From: Clostridia bacterium
GTDB lineage: Bacteria > Bacillota_A > Clostridia > UBA1212 > UBA1255
Length of the DNA stretch: 5,670 nt
Assembly (NCBI GenBank): GCA_017522515.1
Contig: JAFWZH010000169.1
Coordinates: 1-5,670 of the forward strand
Direction of reading: 5' to 3'
Numbering within the stretch: position 1 is the first letter of the stretch; every line of letters begins with the position of its first letter. Below are positions 1,893 to 2,067 of the stretch, piece after piece. Position numbers and translations under genes: made by a program. The notes beneath the pieces are model-generated. The model was not told where the DNA came from, searched no databases, and was given only the letters and a program-made list of their open reading frames with translations.

Positions 1893-1936
1893 AAATAATA
1901 AAAAGTGCGCTACAAACGCAATCGTTTGCAACGCAC
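1893..1936 (-). terminator. Intrinsic terminator / attenuator immediately before the ribosome binding site
   Basis: In minus-strand RNA, 1936-1923 pairs with 1918-1905 as an unbroken 14-bp stem containing two G-U pairs (1931-1910, 1929-1912) and an AUUG loop. It is followed by UUUUUAUUAUUU (1904-1893). The next five bases are the AGGAG of the cohesin-LRR gene. A terminator in this place would stop most transcripts before the gene unless it is overridden. The upstream linker segment 1959-1953 (GCAAUCG) is exactly complementary to 1924-1918 in the stem and loop, so a competing antiterminator is possible. Confidence 0.75.
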
Positions 1937-2067
1937 AAAAAATACATTACTCCGATTGCTACGACACAATTTTCCACAAAACACTTGTAAGTATGCGAAA
2001 AGGGAGTATGTACTTTTTTCAAAAAGTACACACCACAAATGTTTTAGGAAATATTTAATTGTGTCGC
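1893..2067 (-). ncRNA. Structured leader RNA or small RNA, candidate new cis-regulatory element
   Basis: The predicted transcript begins with a long imperfect stem. Bases 2066-2057 pair with 1971-1962 (10 bp, plus G2067-U1961). Next come a 6-base bulge, 2050-2047 with 1975-1972, a small internal loop, 2045-2035 with 1988-1978 (11 pairs), and an apical hairpin 2034-2021 with 2018-2005. A 16-base unpaired stretch (2004-1989) sits on the 3' side. Four pairs in this stem (2067-1961, 2039-1984, 2034-2005, 2031-2008) are G-U in the minus-strand RNA but would be A-C in a plus-strand RNA, which supports function as a minus-strand transcript. After a short linker comes an intrinsic terminator (1936-1893). 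I do not recognise a known riboswitch or T-box core in it. It could be an attenuator of the downstream gene, a 5' mRNA-stabilising structure, or a free-standing RNA of about 170 nt. The fold is by eye, without energy calculation. Confidence 0.55.

Follow-up and report, generated by a model that had tools for sequence, protein, structure and literature searches.

A promoter-coupled structured RNA family of Clostridia, probably a transcription attenuator

Comparison with known leader RNAs

The closest described systems are the terminator-type riboswitches and riboswitch candidates, which are structured leaders with conserved unpaired bases, occur in several copies per genome, tandem copies included, and have mutually exclusive pairings that end in an intrinsic terminator before the ribosome-binding site. 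The c-di-GMP riboswitches (I and II) are found in many copies per genome and with surface and adhesion genes in Clostridia. T-boxes are terminator/antiterminator leaders, 6S RNA is a long-stem RNA of a size similar to that described here, and the type III toxin-antitoxin systems (ToxI/ToxN) are composed of a promoter, a pseudoknot-forming RNA, a terminator and then a gene.

The locus studied here is located on the minus strand of a 5,670-nucleotide stretch of DNA from a Clostridia bacterium, which as a whole is referred to as the window. The RNA predicted from it shares with the terminator-type riboswitches and candidates each of the features listed above. It differs from the riboswitches in that its predicted first base is fixed as the first base of the first stem (P1), with the promoter spacing being part of the family, in that it belongs to no Rfam family, and in that the genes behind it mainly code for exported proteins rather than for the proteins of one pathway.

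A covariance scan of the window against Rfam 15, with matches up to E 5, gave no family over the element. Scans of 12 and 17 loci from relatives up to E 1, of which the latter took in other shapes of the RNA, gave no family over any element, apart from a microRNA match in one locus (L040) that was far below threshold (28.7 versus 60 bits). There was no c-di-GMP riboswitch model over the element and no match to T-box or 6S RNA in the window or in these loci, and a single sub-threshold match to c-di-GMP-I in one of the loci (L033) was situated more than 1000 bases from the element. The sequence-only reading that preceded this analysis had seen no hallmark of known riboswitch or T-box classes. 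The order of promoter, pseudoknot-capable RNA, terminator and gene resembles that of ToxI/ToxN, but there are no direct repeats in the region 1850-2210 and the gene codes for an LRR surface-type protein; for the window, to which these observations refer, the type III toxin-antitoxin explanation was rejected. At 2101-2203, the Rfam model tp2 matched below threshold (33 bits versus a cut-off of 50, E 0.012), over a hairpin at 2142-2179 that appears to be the terminator of the dockerin-LRR gene located upstream.

Within the portions of the literature that they covered, our searches retrieved no description of this RNA, and term searches in three large RNA-discovery papers (PMC8040213, PMC11109978, PMC8632094) gave no passage that describes it. 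An earlier listing without a name, for example in supplements or subscription papers, is possible.

Recovery of the family and conservation of promoter and fold

Several routes to relatives were unproductive. Searches of the window's own genome gave no match that withstood scrutiny, the N-terminal domain of the downstream gene product gave no match at E 0.001, plasmid searches gave matches at chance level alone, and the dockerin protein, when used as a query, gave 1788 unspecific LRR-type matches and no relative on viral contigs. A short-pattern match in viral contigs (L002) was rejected as a chance match inside a coding gene. The first relative was identified from a weak DNA match (E 6e-4) in a phage collection, and a second was found afterwards. 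In the first homolog, the promoter and terminator are in the same place, P1 and the block that follows it are the same, and a lipoprotein-like gene comes next. Two records, L001 (MT835845.1) and L003 (MT837627.1), are labelled “Bacteriophage sp.” and UNVERIFIED. By eye, L001 contains Clp ATPase-like and YicC-like genes of a bacterial housekeeping type, which makes the phage label doubtful, while L003 contains an integrase-like gene.

A pattern based on the shared ends matched at least 120 loci in a genome collection, four of which were judged to be chance matches. The 124 pattern matches comprise the window, L001, L003 and L004-L123, with L043 matching on both strands. The 80 titles listed are Clostridia-type or unnamed bacterial assemblies, many from gut or rumen samples, except for one Halobaculum and one Nostoc; the matches in the latter two (L041, L060) and in L087 and L100 were dropped by eye. 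The comparison set contains 120 elements, of which 119 are distinct. Two alignments were analyzed. The first, A3, consists of 52 of 55 chosen sequences, with the window as one row and with L043, L055 and L123 left out. The second, A4, comprises 84 later matches at 80 loci, which are L124-L207 without L141, L142, L143 and L145, with a cut-off of E 5e-7. It is not wholly independent of A3, in which the sequences of at least L147 and L194 also occur, and that of L166 in nearly identical form.

Another model, R2, was built from 58 matches with E up to 1e-13 at 54 of the loci L124-L207; the window is absent from it, and its 58 sequences had been collected with the first model, whose 52 rows include the window. 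The strongest evidence came from the covariance search that the sequence-only reading had proposed, in which R2 recovered the window with 116.4 bits (E 6.9e-24) over the full model length; the next-best matches in the window were to this stem read on the opposite strand (22.3 bits) and others of 15.5 bits or less. Sequence comparison thereby confirms that the window encodes a real structured RNA that is a member of a large RNA family of Clostridia.

The 19 source genomes of 20 chosen loci each carry the RNA, with 2-25 model matches at E up to 0.01, some spurious opposite-strand and partial matches included. It was recovered from 49 of 196 genomes in the class, 64 of 197 in the order and 4 of 41 in the family of genome G008, from 26 of 28 genomes in the order of genome G015, and from one of 299 genomes in a phylum-wide draw, the one being G008 itself; these tallies count the seed genomes, and sampling and filters differ between draws, so that the frequencies are rough. 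Tandem arrangements of two or three copies, each with its own promoter and terminator as judged by eye, were observed in L168-L172, L146, L147, L209, L210 and L220, several of which were selected because they were tandem. One fetched stretch with a copy of the RNA also contains an FMN riboswitch (L156:17-134, 97.9 bits).

The promoter of the window is located at 2102-2074 on the minus strand, with the -35 sequence TTGACA at 2102-2097, a 17-nt spacer, TG at 2082-2081 and the -10 sequence TATAAT at 2079-2074. The number of promoter-like sites in the window is not in excess of that in shuffled sequences, and this site alone among the 21 listed matches the consensus at 12 of 12 positions. It had been described as a perfect consensus promoter, which is borne out, with the extended TG in addition. 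The predicted first base is the G at 2067, seven bases past the -10 sequence, with which the long stem opens. Across the 119 distinct elements, the -35 and -10 sequences are placed at one fixed distance from the first base of the stem: T is present at -35 in 116, TG at -15/-14 in 112 each, T at -12 in 113, A at -11 in 114 and T at -7 in 112 elements, and the base that precedes P1 is T in 118. The starting pattern specified letters in P1 and not in the promoter, and the conservation of the promoter is thus not built in. TAnnnT was found in position in 81 of 84 covariance-model matches, 72 of which have the extended form, and in each of 23 matches from a third set of 27, the other four being the opposite strand of an element. 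The comparison shows that the promoter is coupled to the RNA, with the transcript predicted to begin at the base that opens P1.

The RNA at 2067-1881 (minus strand) has a predicted folding energy of -65.9 kcal/mol, as compared to a mean of -37.35 (sd 3.43) for 200 shuffled sequences (z -8.3), none of which was as stable; this energy fold was a further check that had been suggested. The main stem at 2067-1961 had been read as roughly 38-40 pairs starting from the first base, and the predicted fold contains 40. It is composed of P1 (2067-2057 with 1971-1961), P2 (2050-2035 with 1988-1972) and P3 (2034-2022 with 2017-2005), all on the minus strand, of which P1 and P3 are backed by covariation in relatives as well as by the fold, and P2 by the fold and a strand-swapping test. 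Six pairs that are possible only as G-U in the RNA had been taken as a sign of selection on the RNA; all six are present in the fold, but the argument is weak on its own and is superseded by the covariation evidence.

For P1, P3 and the terminator taken together, 116 double-change cells were counted in A3, versus 35.4 in shuffled alignments, with P1 nearly invariant because the starting pattern had fixed it. The corresponding count in A4 is 427 versus 100.2, with changes on both sides in 29 of 31 pairs, although the A4 alignment was fitted to the structure of P1, P3 and the terminator and its covariation therefore leans towards that structure. The 84 sequences in A4 display 44 different 5' strands of P1, of which 39 are without alignment gaps, and position 3 of P1 occurs as G-C, C-G, U-A and A-U. 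P2 is without conserved sequence. Its own strands average -19.4 kcal/mol, as compared to -7.9 for swapped strands, and were the better partners in 106 of 107 elements, these being the members of the 119 that have the required anchor (12 do not). Comparison shows that P1, P2, P3 and the terminator, as predicted, are kept as pairs. A lack of conservation and covariation in relatives had been named as evidence against an RNA; both are strong in P1, P3, the terminator and the pairing of segments x and y described below. Conserved unpaired bases are scattered along the RNA, which in itself is no proof of ligand binding.

A longer form of about 190-220 nt was observed in L150-L152, L154-L156, L159, L181 and L222, often with P1 as GCCAAAC/GUUUGGC. 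It contains an additional A/U-rich stretch between P1 and P3, which in some members forms an obvious hairpin, such as GGGUAUUUAUACCC.

Terminator and alternative pairings

The main stem is followed by an intrinsic terminator at 1936-1900 (minus strand), with a stem of 14 pairs and a loop of 4 at 1936-1905 and UUUUU at 1904-1900. The hairpin has an energy of -20.9 kcal/mol and covaries in relatives in the pooled test with P1 and P3. As noted from the sequence, this strong terminator directly precedes the AGGAG ribosome-binding site (1892-1888), which is seven bases before the ATG start codon (1880-1878). An intrinsic terminator is thus placed between the promoter and the start codon of the gene that would be controlled, which extends from 1880 to 3 on the minus strand and runs off the window. 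Its product has a signal-like N-terminus, a cohesin-like domain and BspA-type LRRs. The earlier designation as a cohesin-LRR gene holds for the LRR part, while the cohesin match falls just under the curated Pfam cut-off (22.4 versus 24.1 bits, E 1.5e-4).

Two segments may take part in alternative pairings. Segment x (2018-2003, minus strand) consists of the 3' strand of P3 and the following bases to ACUCC, and segment y (GGAGUAAUGUAUUUUUU, 1953-1937), situated past P1, has two possible partners, namely x and the terminator 5' arm. Pairing with the terminator arm would form a candidate antiterminator hairpin (1950-1942 with 1936-1928, minus strand), which in the window is partly based on G-U pairs. 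The calculated energies in the window are -17.4 kcal/mol for the x-y duplex, with a few flanking pairs counted in, and -11.4 kcal/mol for the antiterminator hairpin.

The x-y pairing was better with its own than with swapped partners in 107 of 119 elements. The double-change cells amount to 60 in A3 and 89 in A4, as compared to 18.1 and 30.9 in shuffled alignments, and the covariation scores are 0.317 and 0.273, respectively, as compared to at most 0.155 and 0.096 when the partner was slid by 1-3 columns. The mere number of x-y pairs with double changes was not clearly above that in shuffled alignments (reached in 36 of 500 for A3 and 141 of 500 for A4). The model structure does not contain x-y, so its covariation is not built in; x also pairs within P3, and x-y is therefore not independent of P3.

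Pairing between y and the 5' arm of the terminator was tested in 117 of the 119 elements (L043, on one strand, and L082 have no simple terminator stem). Own partners were better than swapped ones in 97 of these, with a duplex energy of -11.7 versus a swapped mean of -8.2 kcal/mol. There were 37 double-change cells versus 21.3 in A4, where none of 500 shuffled alignments reached the score, and 22 versus 14.3 in A3, where 25 of 500 did. One antiterminator pair fails in 45 of the 84 sequences in A4, and a plain count of doubly changed pairs does not clearly exceed that in shuffled alignments (reached in 215 of 500 for A3 and 135 of 500 for A4). The comparisons thus lend this pairing weaker support than x-y, P1, P2, P3 or the terminator. 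A pairing that would exclude the terminator is present in the family as a whole, and in the window partly by means of G-U pairs.

Of the two structures, the terminator is the more stable in about 90 of 117 members and the antiterminator in only 27, which speaks against the attenuator reading; in the window, the terminator is favored by 9.5 kcal/mol. Since the terminator is usually the more stable, the default state should be OFF, unless the order of folding decides. In a recurrent variant, shape B (e.g., L164-L167, L178, L197), all three segments depart in concert from the usual form, as judged by eye: x is of a CUCUC type, y is of a GAGAG type and the terminator arm has UCUC-type letters, in line with the proposed switch. 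A run of five U in y (U5, model positions 128-132) is conserved to 94-100% per position in the 84 relatives. U5 hardly covaries, unlike the middle of x-y, and might cause pausing or pair with a further partner.

Downstream genes, rival explanations and proposed mechanism

We examined the genes behind the RNA across the family. Among 203 elements, a few repeats included, 199 were far enough from the end of the stretch, and 166 of these are followed by a ribosome-binding site and start codon within 110 nt of the terminator end (median distance 22), versus 29 of 150 in a control on the divergent side. The remaining 33 have no such start within reach. N-termini resembling those of secreted or membrane proteins were identified by an ad hoc hydrophobicity rule, rather than a signal-peptide predictor, in 91 of 118 downstream products of at least 120 amino acids, versus 85 of 393 control frames. 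The control frames, all from L004-L123, are complete and begin with ATG, restrictions that do not apply to the downstream set, which contains open frames, starts other than ATG and loci found later as well. The odds ratio is 12.2, with a Fisher p of 7.5e-28 that is generous because related loci are not independent. Relatives of the LRR region of the window product, itself counted, were found among 35 of 116 downstream products versus 5 of 393 controls. A Pfam scan covered 150 of 160 distinct downstream products, the window product among them, cut to 500 residues, and LRR_5 was identified in 34. In the 25 of 51 families listed, the rest is mixed and includes helix-turn-helix and zinc-ribbon proteins, AMP-binding enzymes, peptidases and others. 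The genes behind the RNA are enriched for exported and LRR proteins.

Judging from these comparisons, the RNA is probably a cis-acting transcription attenuator of Clostridia, which we have found described nowhere. The sequence-only reading had proposed an attenuator, a protein-bound leader or a separate small RNA; this set of options is supported, and the placement and bias of the genes favor a cis-acting attenuator over a free small RNA. The comparisons show that y can pair with x in the apical hairpin, which would create a pseudoknot across P1; its ability to pair with the terminator 5' arm is less well supported. By default, P1, P2 and P3 would fold, x would capture y as it emerges, the terminator would form and an RNA of about 165 nt would be released (OFF). 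A signal that holds x would let y invade the 5' arm of the terminator, and the polymerase would read into the gene (ON); candidate signals are a small molecule, a protein or another RNA. On spatial grounds, it is doubtful that x-y coexists with the full P1-P2.

Antitermination under the control of a protein is the rival that survives best, and we consider it a serious minority possibility; being a version of the attenuator reading, its probability overlaps with that of the latter. Here, a regulator would bind the conserved unpaired bases and stabilize one of the folds with no small-molecule aptamer involved, in line with the spread of such bases along the RNA and with the lack of a single metabolic theme in the gene families listed.

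It is unlikely that the RNAs are trans-acting small RNAs of about 165 nt with other targets, to which the neighboring genes would be incidental or exposed by read-through leakage. The units of promoter, RNA and terminator are complete, they occur as tandem pairs and one triple (L168-L172, by eye), the 19 genomes have 2-25 model matches each, some of them spurious, and 33 of the 199 elements lack a gene start in reach; however, the excess of gene starts over the control, the strong bias in gene type and the alternative pairing with the terminator arm all speak for a role in cis.

That the elements are MITE-like mobile inverted repeats carrying a promoter by chance is very improbable. The many copies per genome, the P1 arms as an inverted repeat and the presence of some copies on contigs from a viral collection would fit, but mobile repeats should be near-identical with fixed terminal repeats, whereas the 21 copies in genome G015 have a median identity of 61% (best pair 92%) and the P1 arms change together, with 39 gap-free 5' strands among 84 sequences. 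The promoter and terminator, moreover, are outside the repeat yet retained, and the elements are placed before genes; the mobile-repeat explanation is thus largely refuted. A classical leader-peptide attenuator would account for a terminator before the gene but is scarcely credible, as a predicted frame of at least 8 codons that is preceded by a ribosome-binding site and ends inside the leader exists in 8 of 119 elements only, and the RNA is a stem from its predicted first base.

It is conceivable, although we lean slightly against it, that the family is a new and very common class of switch RNAs in Clostridia through which one shared signal sets the surface proteome. Many unrelated genes of a single cell, for secreted proteins, lipoproteins and LRR proteins, would then each be placed behind a promoter-locked pseudoknot switch that operates by strand exchange between P3, x and y. 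U5 would serve as the exchanging strand or for pausing, and copies in tandem would act as stacked gates. Given its occurrence in 49 of the 196 genomes sampled from the class, with up to about 20 copies per genome, and its position outside every Rfam 15 family, such a regulatory RNA would fill a large gap in the picture of gene control in these bacteria. With 91 of the 118 longer downstream products appearing to be exported, identification of the signal would reveal what is sensed during surface remodelling. Its many and diverse members make the family suitable for firm structure work, and the switch can be transferred to laboratory strains.

A few loci have unusual surroundings. Each copy of the RNA in L171 precedes its own short gene, and at L171:200-900 a copy and a short AbrB-like gene (by eye) are duplicated in tandem, with the first copy of the gene truncated. 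The copies from the viral-contig collection are located on four contigs (L164-L167), and those in L164 and L166 are followed by an MSGSS-type gene, as is a copy from the genome collection (L010).
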